From contig NZ_JAZHSD010000001.1 in NCBI RefSeq assembly GCF_036924745.1, positions 1,984,001-2,048,000 of the forward strand: a stretch of 64,000 bases of DNA. Direction: 5' to 3'. Positions 15,281-25,936 of this stretch are shown here, in pieces (position 1 is the first letter of the stretch; every line of letters begins with the position of its first letter). This DNA comes from Bradyrhizobium sp. AZCC 1693. GTDB lineage: Bacteria > Pseudomonadota > Alphaproteobacteria > Rhizobiales > Xanthobacteraceae. The notes beneath the pieces are model-generated. The model saw nothing but the letters and a program-made list of their open reading frames with translations, searched no databases and was not told the DNA's origin. Position numbers and translations under genes: made by a program.

Positions 15281-16201
15281 ATGAGTACGGATGCTGTCAG
15301 CCCGCTGCGCCAGCGCATGATCGAGGACATGAATGCGCGCAAGCTCTGTGCGGGCACGCAGAGAGGCCATATCAGCAGTTGCAAGCGGTTCGCGGCGTTT
15401 GTGAAGCAGTCCCCCGACACGGCCACACTTGAGGACATCCGCCGCTTCCAGCTGCACCTGGCCGAGACGGGCGCGAGCATCTGCAACCGCAACCGCATCA
15501 TGACCGGGTTGCGGTTCTTGTTCCGCGTGACGCTGCGCCGATTGGACCTTGCGGCCGAGATCTATCATCTCCGCGAGCCTCAGAAGATCCCGCTGGTGAT
15601 GAGCCAGGATGAGACGCGGCGCCTGCTGGCCGTCGCCGGCAGCCTCAAGGCCCGCCTCCTGCTCAGCCTCGGCTATGGCTGCGGGTTGCGCGCCGGCGAG
15701 GTGGTGCGGCTCAAGGTCAAGCATATCGACAGCGCGCAGAAGATCATTCGCATCGAGCAGTCCAAGGGGCGCAAGGACCGTAATGTCATGCTGTCGTCAA
15801 AGACGCTCGATCTGTTGCGGCAATGGTGGAAGGCGCGCCCATCGCGTCACGATGCGCAAACGCCCGTGCCGGAACGCTGGCTGTTTCCCGGCACCAGGGC
15901 CGGCAAGCCCATGACCACCCGCCAGCTCAACCGCCTGTTTCATGAGGCGGCCGATGCGGCCGGGATCAGGAAGGGCGTGACGCTGCACGCGCTGCGCCAC
16001 AGCTTCGCGACCCACCTGCTGGAGGACGGCACCGATATCAGATTCATCCAGGCGCTGCTGGGTCACGACAAACTGGACACGACGGCGCGCTATACCCGTG
16101 TCGCCACCGGCATGATCGCGGCGATCGAAAGCCCGCTCGACCGGCTGTCGCAGCCTCGCAAGAGACCCAGGAAGAGCAGGAAGAACCCGCCGCCGGCGTA
16201 A
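15281..16201 (+). CDS. site-specific tyrosine recombinase of the IS91-like element
   Basis: The 306-residue XerD-like recombinase has an N-terminal SAM-like core-binding domain (residues 10-95) and a C-terminal catalytic domain with all usual residues. These are Arg in GCGLRAGEVVRLKVKHID, Lys in EQSKGRKDR, the H-x-x-R box in LHALRHSFATHLLEDG, His in IQALLGHDKLDTT, and the Tyr nucleophile in TARYTRV. Such recombinases precede the transposase in many IS91-type elements of Rhizobiales and may assist resolution or excision. ATG 15281 follows the sequence aggagtttcct. The basic C-terminal tail (QPRKRPRKSRKNPPP) may bind DNA non-specifically. Confidence 0.92.
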   Translation: MSTDAVSPLRQRMIEDMNARKLCAGTQRGHISSCKRFAAFVKQSPDTATLEDIRRFQLHLAETGASICNRNRIMTGLRFLFRVTLRRLDLAAEIYHLREPQKIPLVMSQDETRRLLAVAGSLKARLLLSLGYGCGLRAGEVVRLKVKHIDSAQKIIRIEQSKGRKDRNVMLSSKTLDLLRQWWKARPSRHDAQTPVPERWLFPGTRAGKPMTTRQLNRLFHEAADAAGIRKGVTLHALRHSFATHLLEDGTDIRFIQALLGHDKLDTTARYTRVATGMIAAIESPLDRLSQPRKRPRKSRKNPPPA

Positions 16202-16213
16202 CGGCCGGGAGCT

Positions 16214-17434
16214 GTGTCGCGTCCAGCGCTGGAGGTCGCGGATATCTTGCGCGACCACGGGGCGGCGTGGCGGCGCGCCAATGCGGGCCACGTCAGTCTC
16301 GGCCAGCTGAAAGTCATGAGTGCGATCGAGCGCTGCCGCACGGCGGCGCTCGGCGGCCATGTGGCGCGCTGCGAGAACGAGACCTGCGCCCACACCGTCA
16401 TCGCCTACAACAGCTGCCGCAACCGGCACTGCCCCAAGTGCCAGGGCGCTGCGGCCCGCGAGTGGCTGGCCGAGCGCGAGGCCGATCTCCTGCCGGTGCC
16501 GTACTTTCATGTGGTGTACACGCTGCCGGCGCAGATCGCCGACATCGCCTATCAGAACAAGGCGGTGATCTACGACCTGCTGTTCAAAGCCTCGGCGGAG
16601 ACCACGCTCACGATCGCGGCCGATCCCAAGCATCTCGGCGCTCGCATCGGCTTCATGTCGGTGCTGCACACATGGGGTTCCGCGCTGACGCATCACCCGC
16701 ATGTCCACATGGTCGTGCCGGGTGGTGGCCTGTCGCCGGACGGATCGAAGTGGATCGCGTGCCGACCACGCTATTTTTTGACCGTGCAGGTTCTCTCGGC
16801 GTTGTTCCGCAGGCTGTTTCTGGAGATGCTGGTCGCGGCTCACCACGCCGGCCGCCTGCAGTTCTTCGGCGAGCATGCGCGGCTCGCCGATAAGGCTGCA
16901 TTCGCTGCCTATCTGACGCCACTGCGCGAGATCAATTGGGTGGTCTACGCCAAAGAGCCGTTCGCCGGGCCCAGGCAGGTGTTGCGCTATCTGTCGCGCT
17001 ACACCCACCGCATCGCGATCTCCAATCGCCGGCTGCTGTCCGCCGACGAGAACGGTGTCACCTTCAAGTACAAGGACTATCGGATCGAGGGGCCCGCCCG
17101 CTACAAGGCGATGACGCTGGCGACCGACGAGTTCATCCGGCGCTTCCTGATCCACGTGCTGCCGAAGGGCTTCCATCGCATCCGACACTATGGCCTGCTC
17201 GCCAACGGCGCCCGAGCCGCAAACATTGCGCACGCGCGCCAGCTGCTCGCTCAGCCGGCGCGCCCTAAAGAACCCGAGACGCCCGAAGCCGCGATCAACG
17301 AACCCCGCGTGCTGCCGCGTCCATGCCCGTGCTGCGGCGCCCGCATGATCGTCATCGAGACTTTTGAGCGCGGCTGCGAGCCGAAGCACCGCCCCACACC
17401 GGCGCCGGCGCCGATCAGGATCGACACATCATGA
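16214..17434 (+). CDS. IS91-family HUH transposase
   Basis: The 406-residue rolling-circle transposase starts at GTG 16214, 12 bases after the recombinase gene. The N-terminal zinc-binding part has CENETCAH and then CRNRHCPKCQG. The HUH site is HHPHVHMVVPGGG at about residues 160-172. The paired catalytic tyrosines sit in VLRYLSRYTHRIAISNRRL at about 255-273. A C-terminal CPCCGAR finger (about 375) completes the usual architecture. The length matches the family (about 370-420 residues). All catalytic residues are present, so the element should be capable of transposition. Confidence 0.93.
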   Translation: MSRPALEVADILRDHGAAWRRANAGHVSLGQLKVMSAIERCRTAALGGHVARCENETCAHTVIAYNSCRNRHCPKCQGAAAREWLAEREADLLPVPYFHVVYTLPAQIADIAYQNKAVIYDLLFKASAETTLTIAADPKHLGARIGFMSVLHTWGSALTHHPHVHMVVPGGGLSPDGSKWIACRPRYFLTVQVLSALFRRLFLEMLVAAHHAGRLQFFGEHARLADKAAFAAYLTPLREINWVVYAKEPFAGPRQVLRYLSRYTHRIAISNRRLLSADENGVTFKYKDYRIEGPARYKAMTLATDEFIRRFLIHVLPKGFHRIRHYGLLANGARAANIAHARQLLAQPARPKEPETPEAAINEPRVLPRPCPCCGARMIVIETFERGCEPKHRPTPAPAPIRIDTS

Positions 17435-21927: not shown

Positions 21928-22473
21928 ACCGCATCGGCCGCAGGACCGCTTATGGGCGACCCAAAGATCCTTATCTACAACGCCTTCACTGATCATCGCG
22001 TCGCGCGGACGCAACTGCCGCTCGCAGCATGCGGTCATTGATTTCCGTGTCAATGTTGGTGGCGCGCTCGTCTCCGCGCAAATCGTGGCTGCGGGAAACG
22101 GAATTTGCAAAAGCGCCCGCAGTTCGACCGCCGAACCTGCGGTCGCCGCTTCACCGCGAATAGATGGTGGGAGCGTCCACGGCCATATCCAGCAGAGCCG
22201 ACTGTTCAGTTCGGCAGCTTGGAAAGGGTCTCAGGACCAAACCGCTGCAGCTTACTCTTGCGGCAATGCAGATCATTATCCACGCTCAGCCAGCACGCTA
22301 CCCTGCCCTTCGCGATCCAGATCTTCAGGTGGTCCAGAGATCTGCGGATGTCAGATCACTCCAAAGAACGACCGCGCACACCTGCCCTCACTAGATTTTT
22401 CTTGATCTCCCGGTGCACACGTCGTGCACACGCCACCCTCTAACCAATTGAAAAACTTGAACTCTCGCTCCAA
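21928..22473. other. no supported gene
   Basis: Several overlapping frames of 76-176 codons exist on the plus strand (21875-22443) but none has family resemblance, and they share the same bases in all three frames, as expected by chance in GC-rich DNA. The start continues the duplicated flank of the fragment at 19908-20000. Confidence 0.4.
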
Positions 22474-22611
22474 TCCATCATGGGTGCAACGGAGAATCTG
22501 GCTTCTAACATATTGTTTTCATTCAACTTAATAATCTTTGCGGCCCAATCGATTTTTGGTTCGACGGACGATCCGAAGCGCTAGAGCTAAAGCATTTTCC
22601 TTTCTTTTCAA
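22474..22611. repeat. direct repeat flanking the HEPN/GIY-YIG island, left copy
   Basis: The conserved blocks are tccatcatgggtgcaa (22474-22489), taacatattg (22506-22515) and gcattttcctttc (22593-22605). The same blocks in the same order and nearly the same spacing (32 and 119 bases here; 32 and 116 there) occur at 25453-25582. The sequence between blocks is diverged. Tryptic GC content is low (AT-rich) relative to the window. Confidence 0.6.
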
Positions 22612-22659
22612 CGGCTTGATCTGATCACTCGATTATTTTGACTTATTTCGACCATGCCC

Positions 22660-22701
22660 GGTACTGCACGGCAGTACCAAAATGCCCGCGCAGTACCGCT
22701 C
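22660..22701. repeat. GGTACTGC / GCAGTACC motif cluster, left
   Basis: The hairpin ggtactgc (22660-22667), acg, gcagtacc (22671-22678) is followed by a further cgcagtaccgc at about 22691. The same motif recurs at the other side of the island: ggtactgcacgg near 25380, ggtacggcatcgcagtacc near 25640 and gcagtaccgcgatgc near 25670. No other place in the window shows this cluster on a reading by eye. Confidence 0.5.
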
Positions 22702-22846
22702 CTCGACAAAGTGTTTTGGCAATGCCCAACTACGCCAGCTGGTCGAATTTGAAATGGGAATGGCACTACCGTGACGCGGACGCCTGATCGATCAGCAATC
22801 CGAGCGTAGCTATACGGGTTCGTTCGGTGTAACCGCCTGTTTGCTG

Positions 22847-23433
22847 CTACAGAGACGCGCGACGCGCAAACAACACCGCCTGCCGCTCCAAAGCTCTGCG
22901 CAACTCGGCAGAATAACCAAGTTCGTCAATCAGCGCATCGACCATCTCTTTGGGCTCATCTTCGGCAGTGAAGTGCAATCTCTCCCATCCTCTCATCGAC
23001 GGAGGGGCAATGGATTGAATCTGCTTTTCGAGCGCGGCGAGTTCACTAAAATAGTCTCGTCCTGCGCCCAACAATGGTACACTGAAGTATACCGCCTTGC
23101 AGTGCCTCCGGCAAAAGACCGCGCGCAGCCGCTTAGCAGCTTTAGCGTCTCGTGACTCCTGCAAAGCACACGGCTCGCGACTGCGCCACATCCTCCCGGT
23201 GTTGTAGGCATGGGAGAACTTGTGGCTATATCCCTCCGAGCCTGTCCATGCTTGTTGTTGATGCGCACCCTAAAACCGCCGCCGGTTACCGCAGTGACCC
23301 CGAAATATCGAACCTGACCCGAATGGTCGACGAGGGCATAGACGCCGTGTTCGTCTGGCAACTTTTCTAGCGCGACCGGCACGCGCGTCGTTAGCGCGTC
23401 TAGCACGGAATAAGGTTCAAGCACTGGGATCAC
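22847..23433 (-). pseudogene. GIY-YIG nuclease-like protein, single-base frameshift
   Basis: A GTG at 23433 overlaps the upstream stop (GTGA), implying translational coupling to the HEPN-motif gene. Frame one gives LPDEHGVYALVDHSGQVRYF, then GVTAVTGGGFRVRINNKHG: the GIY-like (GVYAL) and YIG-like (YFGVT) strands and the catalytic Arg region. At about 23212 a CCC run appears to have lost one C; restoring it gives SPHAYNTGRMWRSREPCALQ, and the chain continues to a Glu-containing helix (YFSELAALEKQIQSIAPPS), the expected last catalytic block. The restored protein has about 195 residues. Either the nuclease is inactive or the base is a sequence error. Confidence 0.65.
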
Positions 23434-24617
23434 CAATCCATATTGGCCGCTTGGTCAAATCGACCAGCCAAGTGGTCCACGAATCGTTCCATCTCTTCAA
23501 GAGACTGCATAGCCCGAGCGTAGGTCCCATCCGAGGCCATGGTCAGTATGATCGGCAACTGACGTTGCTGGATGTAGAGTTCGGCCGGCTCTCTGGGGCC
23601 ACTCCACAAGTGCAGTATGAACGCGTCAATGATCTGCAAGGCGGCGTCATCATCGAAAGTCAAACGCTCGCCCATCGTCAGCCGCTTGTTGCCAAGGCGA
23701 TGAGGAAGCAGCAGAGGGACAGCACCTGCACCGGAGTGAAATTCGAAAGCCTTTCCATCCTTCCCGAACGCACCATGGGCCACGAAATTTCGTAGCTCCC
23801 TGCGAATTTCGATCAGTTTGTCGTAGAAGCCCTTCGTGGCAGAATCAGAAAGGTCGAGCGCATACTTAAATTTTTCAGCCCAATTTTCGTCTGCAAGGCG
23901 CGCAACGTCTTTCCCAGTTTGCAGTCGCCCGCTGAGGATCGAAATGTGGATGAATACGTGCTCAGTCCAACTGAAGAAGGACTCGATTGTGGTAAGAGCC
24001 AGCCATTGAGCCTCCGTGCGCAGTTGGAACGCTGGGCGCGATATTGATGTCCACTTTCCGCTAGTCGTTTCCCCCTCAGTTATGGTTTTTTCGTCTTTGC
24101 GCGCTTCGGCTTCGACAGCCTTGCTCCGATAAGCCTCCCTAAAATACGTGAAACGCGCAAAAAGCGCATCGCTATTATTGGTGACGTTAACGGAAGATGC
24201 CTCGACCGCTTTATCCGCAAGCCAATCGAAGAAGGGCTCGGCAGCCCTAGTCGCCTTCTTGATGTGCGTCACAATATCGCGCGCAGCGCCTTCATCCATT
24301 TCCAGATCGTGAACAAAAACACCGACACCGAATTTTCGATGTTCGATCAAGAATGCCTTGCCTTGATAATCGATGGGCACCGACCAAGAAATCTTTTCGA
24401 ATTGGCCCAAGTTCTTGAAGCCAAGCAAGTCTACAAGAAGAAAGTAGACCAAATAGTACGGTGGCAAGCTGCGACCGGCTTCTGAGCGCTTTGCGTTGAA
24501 AAGAAACTCCCTGTCCGCGTGTGTGGCATCGCTAGCTGGGGAAATCGGACCAAGCGCCCGCCTTGCGGCCTCTCGTACGGACTCCAGTTCCGCAGGTAGC
24601 GGCAGACTCATTGGCAT
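23430..24617 (-). CDS. protein with HEPN-like R-x4-H motif, partner of the GIY-YIG gene
   Basis: From ATG 24617 (MPMSLPLPAELESVREAARR) the product has 395 residues. The frame stays open to 24830, but the extra part overlaps the operator of the divergent toxin gene. The helix IEIRRELRNFVAHGAFG (about 269-285) contains RNFVAH, an R-x4-H motif followed by G, as in HEPN-fold RNases and related abortive-infection proteins, and lies within an all-helical C-terminal half. The N-terminal half has a hydrophobic strand region (LPPYYLVYFLLVDLLGF) and an aromatic-rich part. No known family is recognised beyond the motif. Its stop overlaps the start of the GIY-YIG gene, so the two form an operon. Confidence 0.7.
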   Translation of the reverse strand: MPMSLPLPAELESVREAARRALGPISPASDATHADREFLFNAKRSEAGRSLPPYYLVYFLLVDLLGFKNLGQFEKISWSVPIDYQGKAFLIEHRKFGVGVFVHDLEMDEGAARDIVTHIKKATRAAEPFFDWLADKAVEASSVNVTNNSDALFARFTYFREAYRSKAVEAEARKDEKTITEGETTSGKWTSISRPAFQLRTEAQWLALTTIESFFSWTEHVFIHISILSGRLQTGKDVARLADENWAEKFKYALDLSDSATKGFYDKLIEIRRELRNFVAHGAFGKDGKAFEFHSGAGAVPLLLPHRLGNKRLTMGERLTFDDDAALQIIDAFILHLWSGPREPAELYIQQRQLPIILTMASDGTYARAMQSLEEMERFVDHLAGRFDQAANMDW

Positions 24618-24690
24618 ATTGAGTTCGTTAGTTGCGTAACGGAGGTCTGTCCAATCGATTTTTCGGGTCGAAACACGCGCCCTTGCTGAA

Positions 24691-24710
24691 ATATACAAAA
24701 TTATGTATAT
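24691..24710. promoter_or_regulatory. operator-like palindrome of the toxin-antitoxin pair
   Basis: Perfect 7-base arms atataca (24691-24697) and tgtatat (24704-24710) are separated by six bases. AT-rich TATACA-n-TGTATA palindromes before HigBA-type operons are bound by the antitoxin. The site also lies 74 bases from the start of the leftward HEPN-motif gene, so the antitoxin might influence both directions. The first usable ATG of the toxin frame (24703) is inside the palindrome. Confidence 0.65.
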
Positions 24711-25066
24711 TGAGCCCAATGATCGCCCCAAATCCGTCGAGTTCCGCGGCAGCGCACTCGACGATTTGTGCGCGTTTCCGCAGGCAGCCCGGCGTGAAGC
24801 TGGCGTGAAGCGGGATATCAACTCGACCAAATCCAGCGCGGGCGCGAGCCGGACGACTGGAAGGCTATGAATACGGTCGGCCGAGGGGGTACGCGAAATT
24901 CGAATTCGCGAAGCCGCGGGAGCTCAGAGTGTTGTATGTGGCGAAGTTCGACGACGCCGTCTACGTGCTGCACTGTTTCCAAAAAAAGACGCAGAAAACG
25001 AGCAAAGCGGATCTGAACCTGGCCGCGCAGCGTTATCGGGATTTGTTAAAGGAGCTAGGTCAATGA
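24703..25066 (+). pseudogene. RelE/HigB-type toxin, inactivated by an 11-base tandem duplication and further shifts
   Basis: The first frame reads SVEFRGSALDDLCAFPQAAR then REAG. The unit ggcgtgaagct (24791-24801) is then repeated as ggcgtgaagcg (24802-24812), which shifts the frame. The sense resumes as GYQLDQIQRGREPDDWKAMN, passes another shift at a G5 run near 24887 (GVREIRIREAAGA) and a third near 24925, and ends LRVLYVAKFDDAVYVLHCFQ, then KKTQKTSKADLNLAAQRYRD to a TGA at 25064. Joined, this is a complete phage-Gp49/HigB-like RNase toxin of about 115 residues. With three lesions it cannot be made. Confidence 0.85.
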
Positions 25067-25344
25067 GCAAGAAACGCTTCGCCAATGTGTGGGACGCAAT
25101 TGAGGAGACGCCTGCGCAGGCTGAGAACATGAAGCTCCGTTCGGCGTTGATCATGGCGTTGAAGGATCATATCGCTCGGACAGGGCTAAGCCAGTCGGAG
25201 GCCGCTAAGCTGCTTGGTGTTACCCAGCCACGTATCTCCGATCTCATGCGCGGCAAGATCGAATTGTTCGGCCTCGATACCTTAGTCAATATGATCGGGG
25301 CTGCCGGCCTGCATGTTGAAATGCGGGTCTCGGACGCAGCCTGA
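25063..25344 (+). CDS. HigA-type HTH antitoxin
   Basis: The gene encodes 93 residues from ATG 25063, overlapping the toxin stop (ATGA). It is an XRE-type helix-turn-helix protein: LSQSEAAKLLGVTQPRISDL, then MRGKIELFGLDTLVNMIGAA at about residues 45-80. This belongs to the COG5606-like antitoxins that pair with Gp49-type toxins. Toxin-first order, overlap and operator agree with that family. The antitoxin is undamaged whereas the toxin is broken; it may survive as a repressor or as an anti-toxin against a homologous system elsewhere. Confidence 0.9.
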   Translation: MSKKRFANVWDAIEETPAQAENMKLRSALIMALKDHIARTGLSQSEAAKLLGVTQPRISDLMRGKIELFGLDTLVNMIGAAGLHVEMRVSDAA

Positions 25345-25936
25345 TCGAAAGCCGCTCGCCGACAGCGTGGTAAAGCATTTGGTACTGCACGGTTGACCGC
25401 AACCCGGTTTAAGTGCTGATCGTGCTTCGCTTTTCCCGCTCAGTCCGTCCACTCCATCATGGGTGCAATGCAAAATCGATGCGTTAACATATTGATGTTA
25501 TTTCGCTTTCTCGTCCCATCTGGAATAGCTGATTTTTTAGCCGACAGAAATTCAAAGCTGACTGGGAGGCATTTTCCTTTCGTTTCAAGTGGTTAAGCGG
25601 ATCGCCTGCTCGTCCTTCAACGATGCTGCACCTCGCCTGGTACGGCATCGCAGTACCACATGAGCTCGTGCAGTACCGCGATGCTGCACCAAGCTTCTAC
25701 ACTTCTTATCGATCCACCTAAGTTCAGACGCAAAGCAACCTGCCGTCCTCCCCGCGCCTAGAGCTCCACAAGTGCAATCGCAGTTTCGGCGATTATAGAG
25801 CAAGAAATCTTGCCGGAATGTTGCTTCGGAGGGGAGCGGTCGCGCTCTCTGAGTTGCTCGGCGTTTGGCCCGTCCAATAGCGGTCGTTTCAAATTCGTAT
25901 AGACTGGGGAGCCGTTTCACTTGCCTCGGAACCTCG
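25345..25936. other. 592-base gap with the right direct repeat
   Basis: The gap contains the right copy of the flanking repeat (25453-25582) and three GGTACTGC-type motifs. No gene is supported; a 111-codon minus frame at 25585-25920 lacks any family pattern. The final 200 bases should hold the promoter of the two-component operon. Confidence 0.5.
25453..25590. repeat. direct repeat flanking the HEPN/GIY-YIG island, right copy
   Basis: Blocks tccatcatgggtgcaa (25453-25468), taacatattg (25485-25494) and gcattttcctttc (25569-25581) match the left copy at 22474-22611 in order, orientation and spacing. The two copies enclose about 2.8 kb with the HEPN-motif gene, the GIY-YIG gene and the toxin-antitoxin pair. 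Confidence 0.6.

Follow-up and report, generated by a model that had tools for sequence, protein, structure and literature searches.

The stretch analysed here, called the window, comprises 64,000 nucleotides (positions 1984001-2048000) of the 7.6-Mb single-contig genome of Bradyrhizobium sp. AZCC 1693. It contains a short segment in which the gene of a HEPN-family protein lies beside a broken GIY-YIG-like nuclease gene and a toxin-antitoxin remnant, with imperfect direct repeats on both sides. An earlier note on this DNA had read the segment as possibly a partly decayed HEPN plus GIY-YIG defence module carried as a unit. The features are the following, in window coordinates:

22470 to 22511, minus strand: left displaced dusA 5' end, which reads MLEARFSVAPMMDW and then departs from the dusA sequence
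22512 to 22837, minus strand: leader of the left dusA copy
22847 to 23424, minus strand: GIY-YIG-like nuclease gene with one frameshift near 23246 (192-195 residues in intact relatives)
23430 to 24617 (end including the stop codon), minus strand: HEPN-family protein gene, intact, 395 residues
24691 to 24710, no strand: palindrome ATATACA-N6-TGTATAT, overlapping the toxin start and 74 bases from the HEPN start
24703 to 25066, plus strand: Gp49-type (DUF891) toxin remnant, in pieces lying in several frames
25063 to 25344, plus strand: HTH_37 antitoxin gene, intact, 93 residues (HTH_37 at 3.3e-23)
25440 to 25490, minus strand: right displaced dusA 5' end, which reads MLTHRFCIAPMMEWTD and then meets a stop
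25491 to 25695, minus strand: leader of the right dusA copy, more diverged

The HEPN gene is an unbroken open reading frame (ORF), as the earlier note had described it, and its product has a predicted alpha/beta N-terminal part (residues ~1-140) followed by a HEPN-like helical part (~145-395) that carries RNFVAHG at residues 276-282. Pfam, PADLOC-2023 and PHROGs contain no model matching the protein at E 0.1; PDB sequences gave no hit up to E 1, and the only NCBIfam hit (0.07) is at chance level. The protein belongs to a large family: 1,854 relatives came up in a protein word search at E<=0.001, and the best 120 of them cover 88-100% of the query and are without Pfam domains. A second search, with a deep alignment, gave 263 relatives at E<=0.01 and included a second subfamily of Sinorhizobium and Rhizobium proteins, about 23% identical, having RNPFAHG and a NMDY tail. 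On two Sinorhizobium/Rhizobium plasmids, the gene of this subfamily is preceded both times by a gene for a 'RHE_PE00001 family protein', and this arrangement is possibly a two-gene version.

The main alignment, comprising the window protein and 237 proteins from both word searches (the best 120 of 1,854 and the best 120 of 263), shows R276, N277, H281, E219, K249, W246, N147, G298 and P301 in 238 of 238 rows, with members down to ~23% identity. K75 and K95 are likewise invariant (237/237 each), G282 is kept in 237/238 rows, and H220 and H294 in 232/238. The RNxxxH form of the R-x4-6-H motif of HEPN superfamily RNases is thus present in every row, near the end of a helix, and the conservation of R276 and H281 in homologues, on which the earlier note had made its HEPN reading depend, is complete. 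Such conservation at 23% identity is more than common descent by itself would be expected to preserve. Among the homologues taken from genome and viral contigs, R276, N277, H281 and G282 are present in 74 of 74, but this figure is partly circular and counts less, because those scans were partly seeded with N[FY]xAHG[AS]FG or RN[FY]xAHG[AS]F; the word-search sets of 1,854 and 263 relatives are the fairer basis. In the same 74 members, Csx1_HEPN was matched weakly by four (best E 0.049) and HEPN_Swt1 by one, and no CARF domain occurs among the Pfam families listed for them (25 of 41). Matches to TcdB_N (9/74, best E 0.0013) and SH3BP5 (6/74, best 0.0025) were taken as chance helical matches and set aside.

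The AlphaFold2 model of the protein (pLDDT 90.9) has a helical C-terminal half, where the RNFVAHG motif lies near the end of a long helix (259-284), and a confidently modelled alpha/beta N-terminal part (~1-140) with conserved EK..W and RKxG motifs. HepT (6m6u, 7bxo, 6m6w) is the top match to the model among the re-aligned PDB chains, with modest Z values of 8.2 and 7.3, which also favours the HEPN reading, while Csx1 and RnlA are lower-ranked matches over the same region and fall below the unrelated background. A Foldseek search of the model against PDB and viral models returned no significant match, and HHalign of the family against HepT aligned the motif only (12 HepT rows, one of them, L113, being a wrong-frame ORF).

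Members of the family occur sporadically. They were found in 2 of 59 other related genomes (at 65% and 27%) and in 7 of 72,556 plasmid records, two of the latter over at least 80% of the protein; 50,697 phage records yielded no match. A tree of 74 sequences bears 11 phylum labels (6 rows are unlabelled), with 13 label changes against a minimum of 10. None of 200 shuffles clustered the labels as strongly, an argument against free exchange between phyla. Taken together, the tree and the sporadic presence fit a wide spread with some transfer, although transfer is unproven.

The neighbours of the gene are not fixed. In 84 family loci (79 genome and 5 viral), no protein cluster occurs within 1.5 kb in more than three. 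Regarding the GIY-YIG-like gene, its 114-residue piece used as query has six relatives in 5.8 billion proteins, against 1,854 for the HEPN protein at the same cut-off, and no match in 197 other genomes of the same family searched. Used in tblastn (E 0.01), these six relatives found nothing in the 93 outside loci that carry a HEPN homologue; 85 of these loci extend at least 600 bases downstream, and 79 do so on both sides. An intact GIY-YIG gene next to a HEPN homologue, which the earlier note had proposed to look for, was therefore found in none of them. Thus, from the absence of matches in the 93 loci, the rarity of the nuclease gene and the lack of a neighbour cluster, the HEPN gene is seen as autonomous and the GIY-YIG gene as a rare local follower.

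An association with defence is seen in Escherichia coli, where a DNA search found the gene in 11 of 5,426 genomes, ten copies at >=99.7% and one at 69%; the protein of the P2-hotspot copy has the accession WP_032248694.1. All ten near-identical copies follow gpA, the replication endonuclease gene, and a 62-residue ORF; the portal gene is visible at nine, and the tenth stretch stops short of it. Rousset 2022 and Vassallo 2022 describe this gpA-portal slot as a P2 prophage defence hotspot. The systems of this hotspot (old-tin, DUF4238, a three-gene system and others; PMC9122126) share the slot and the P2-like prophages with the HEPN gene, which unlike them has no PADLOC-2023 match. A search for papers mentioning any of six of the family's accessions or locus tags returned none, though the gene may stand unnamed in the supplementary tables of Rousset 2022. 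What follows these ten copies varies four ways: five genomes have a three-gene set that includes a STAS-like protein, three have a TIR protein, one has a 557-residue DitB-like protein, and one has Hp1/Hp2, which we take to be parts of 3HP. A validated defence hotspot can thus hold a constant gene with exchangeable company. The eleventh copy lies among insertion sequence and type VI secretion genes.

Two of these followers were also noted for themselves. In L157 (4491-6164) the gene of the 557-residue DitB-like protein separates the HEPN gene from the P2 portal, and in L098 (7537-9415) the same position is taken by the three-gene set, one gene being weakly HATPase-like and one STAS-like; neither of the two genes scanned had a PADLOC match. 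Both are candidates for further defence systems.

Defence genes are also found near the gene elsewhere. On plasmid pWH01K (L099, 7615-9155) it is followed by Gabija, near a methyltransferase and helicase pair, and in Variovorax it adjoins a gene for an OLD-like protein. The nearest neighbours, 142 ORFs from 78 loci (six near-duplicates of the 84 being dropped, and genes being called by a simple longest-ORF caller), matched 328 PADLOC families at E 1e-10, compared to 71 families, each in one protein at most, for an equal number of genes lying beyond 7 kb; these 142 were a random draw from 164 and come from 60 loci. The family totals do not equal protein counts, because the families overlap; 23 of the 25 families listed for the near set, such as mad3, GajA, reverse transcriptases and OLD, were each matched by 3-4 proteins. 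The link to defence suspected from the sequence is supported by the hotspot and by the richer neighbourhood.

From these observations, we consider that the 395-residue protein is a member of an uncatalogued, solitary HEPN ribonuclease (RNase) family protecting bacteria and prophages from phages, with a probability of roughly 60%. The RNase activity, the dimerisation, the trigger and the abortive outcome are what we infer. Two copies of the protein would pair by their helical C-terminal halves, and the RNase site of the dimer would be made up of R276 and H281 together with N277 and, probably, E219-H220 and H294. The N-terminal alpha/beta part, with its EK..W and RKxG motifs, may keep the RNase silent and sense a phage-induced change; once released, the enzyme would cut host and phage RNA and halt growth, and the phage would not spread. 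In the window, the HEPN gene sits in a 3-kb segment between two dusA-island relics, and the broken GIY-YIG and toxin genes beside it would not be needed.

A latent dimeric RNase freed by a phage signal via the N-terminal part is proposed by analogy with Tha, a HEPN protein of a Staphylococcus aureus prophage. Tha carries R265NSIMH270 and has been shown to degrade RNA when a phage tail protein triggers it (PMC11087260). Both proteins are prophage-borne, with a C-terminal HEPN part having RNxxxH. In described features they differ: Tha has 301 residues without a discernible N-terminal domain, while the present protein has 395 residues and a confidently modelled alpha/beta N-terminal part, and its family carries labels of 11 phyla. 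HepT of the MntA-HepT system resembles the family in its Arg-x4-His motif (RNRIAHGY in a HepT-like protein, compared to RNFVAHGA in the window). In MntA-HepT the motif is R-x4-H-x-Y, and the tyrosine two residues past the histidine is the site of AMPylation. In contrast, 235 of the 238 rows of the present family have A, G or S at this position (283) and none has Y (A 142, G 62, S 31, T 1, E 1, gap 1), and the family has no conserved adjacent antitoxin gene, as seen above for the 84 loci. The Csx1 and RnlA RNases resemble it in that they match over the same region, Csx1_HEPN weakly in sequence too, but differ in that the structural matches stay below background and those in sequence are not significant.

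HEPN abortive effectors are already known; the present family, with its N-terminal part and its extended signature, is absent from the libraries searched. This near-invariant signature (K75, K95, E219-H220, RNxxxHG, H294 and the NMDW/Y tail) suggests that a phage sensor of an uncharacterised alpha/beta type would be directly coupled to the active site of a HEPN RNase in one chain. We give even odds to the family being, in this form, a portable one-gene abortive-infection system of many phyla. If the reading of the family as antiphage RNases holds, over 1,800 proteins, most of them unnamed or 'hypothetical', would become a testable antiphage family, and near-identical E. coli prophage copies are on hand for cloning.

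Other explanations have to be weighed against this one. A HEPN-fold protein with another role, such as an RNA-binding regulator or an enzyme whose true active site lies in the N-terminal half (EK..W, RKxG), could have reached defence islands by hitch-hiking. The equal invariance of K75 and K95 with R276 and H281 and the modest similarity to HepT would agree with it; nonetheless, RN-x3-H in 238/238 rows near the end of the long helix is the catalytic motif of known HEPN RNases, including Tha, and the gene recurs in a validated defence hotspot, making this explanation unlikely.

Somewhat less likely still is a HEPN toxin of a toxin-antitoxin pair, with a neighbouring HTH or DUF2384 antitoxin, maintaining plasmids or islands. 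An HTH_37 antitoxin gene does lie divergent beside the window HEPN gene, a DUF2384 (Xre/MbcA/ParS) antitoxin gene overlaps the HEPN start on pWH01K, and among the 142 nearest neighbours PemK was matched by three and RES by two (Pfam). However, no neighbour family is conserved, the antitoxins belong to different families, none is annotated beside the ten E. coli hotspot copies, and in the window the HTH_37 gene is paired with a Gp49-type toxin remnant. The 46-residue tail of this toxin matches Gp49 (8.1e-15), while its 34-residue first piece found no match in the same scan, the frames of the pieces being judged by eye. The divergent pair described as HigBA is present with its antitoxin whole and its toxin fragmented, and a more fitting description is an HTH_37 antitoxin beside the remnant of a Gp49-type toxin. 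As a general partner of the HEPN gene it was rejected, because no conserved neighbour exists across the 84 loci. The operator reported 74 bases away corresponds to the palindrome at 24691-24710, the sole one of its pattern (spacer 4-8) in the 64 kb, and is probably that of the antitoxin.

The weakest alternative, a two-gene HEPN and GIY-YIG module coupling RNA and DNA cleavage in one operon, is very improbable. In its favour, the genes lie on one strand, 5 bases apart, six relatives of the nuclease gene without the break exist, and the closest listed HEPN relative (P0001, 96%) and GIY-YIG relative (P0121, 92%) are both on short JGI contigs. The module was rejected on the counts given above (none of 93 outside loci, six relatives for a 114-residue query, absence from the 197 genomes), on the four kinds of followers in E. 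coli and on the lack of any annotated GIY-YIG gene beside the 11 E. coli copies. The six relatives conserve GVYAL..RY.G, an R and an E (6/6), and three of them match Pfam PF01541 at E 0.05-0.31, under its cut-off. The GTGA overlap of the HEPN stop is present in the DNA, but the relatives start at a methionine aligning with the next GTG (23424), 5 bases past that stop. Decay affects the frameshifted GIY-YIG gene and the fragmented toxin gene, not the HEPN gene.

The direct repeats, described before as about 130 bases long, are real but extend to ~250 bases and consist of displaced dusA 5' ends with their leaders. They agree in 171 of 264 aligned columns (score 170; 300 simple shuffles reached 72 at most), and their core, TCCATCATGGGTGCAA, with up to two mismatches allowed, occurs twice, both times exactly (0.04 expected). 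Both displaced ends read ...APMM(D/E)W. The source gene is dusA: a gene of the same genome at 1877181-1878128 passes the cut-off of TIGR00742 (yjbN), the DusA model, and lies ~128 kb left of the HEPN segment, with a tyrosine integrase just upstream and, beyond the latter, genes which we take to be of Trb-type secretion. Compared with the sequence preceding intact dusA ORFs in three same-genus genomes, the left 5' end and leader show 83, 84 and 81% identity; two other genomes match too (83, 80%) but without a long dusA ORF. Among 145 other same-genus genomes searched, 19 gave matches to parts of the leader.

As described by Farrugia 2015, the insertion of a dusA island displaces the dusA 5' end. 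In such islands (PMC4482086), the element brings a new 5' end and displaces the original, leaving imperfect direct repeats, and a displaced end is indeed found at the boundaries here. The present case differs in that no integrase is seen in the 2.98-kb segment (ORFs of 22.5-25.5 kb judged by eye, with a Pfam scan of the main ones), the integrase beside dusA being 128 kb off. Element ends of 45 bases, similar to one another, are also present at 1944785 and 1965239 and suggest tandem insertions; the HEPN segment lies at the far end of this island array, flanked by two dusA scars. The window repeats are thus explained as island scars at dusA; since they are attachment-site relics and not the ends of a HEPN unit, any 'unit' is the segment between two island insertions.

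Other readings of the repeats were discarded. A tRNA gene occurs at only one of eight own-genome repeat loci, so tRNA attachment sites were rejected; no Rfam family was matched at its gathering score, the only hit being a chance-level microRNA match (E 0.057); and a nod-box reading was dropped on finding dusA. No clean empty site was found in three same-genus genomes, where the right flank alone (from 25875 or 25937) aligned. The same 45-base element end was also seen off the array, at 1863492, 3024879, 7058268 and 7135397, one of which adjoins a tRNA-Gln gene. Within the dusA leader, a palindrome (GGTACTGC..GCAGTACC) is repeated at 22651-22700 and 25630-25680 and is a possible operator. Elsewhere in the window, at 15281-17434, a tyrosine recombinase gene is followed by an IS91-type transposase gene.

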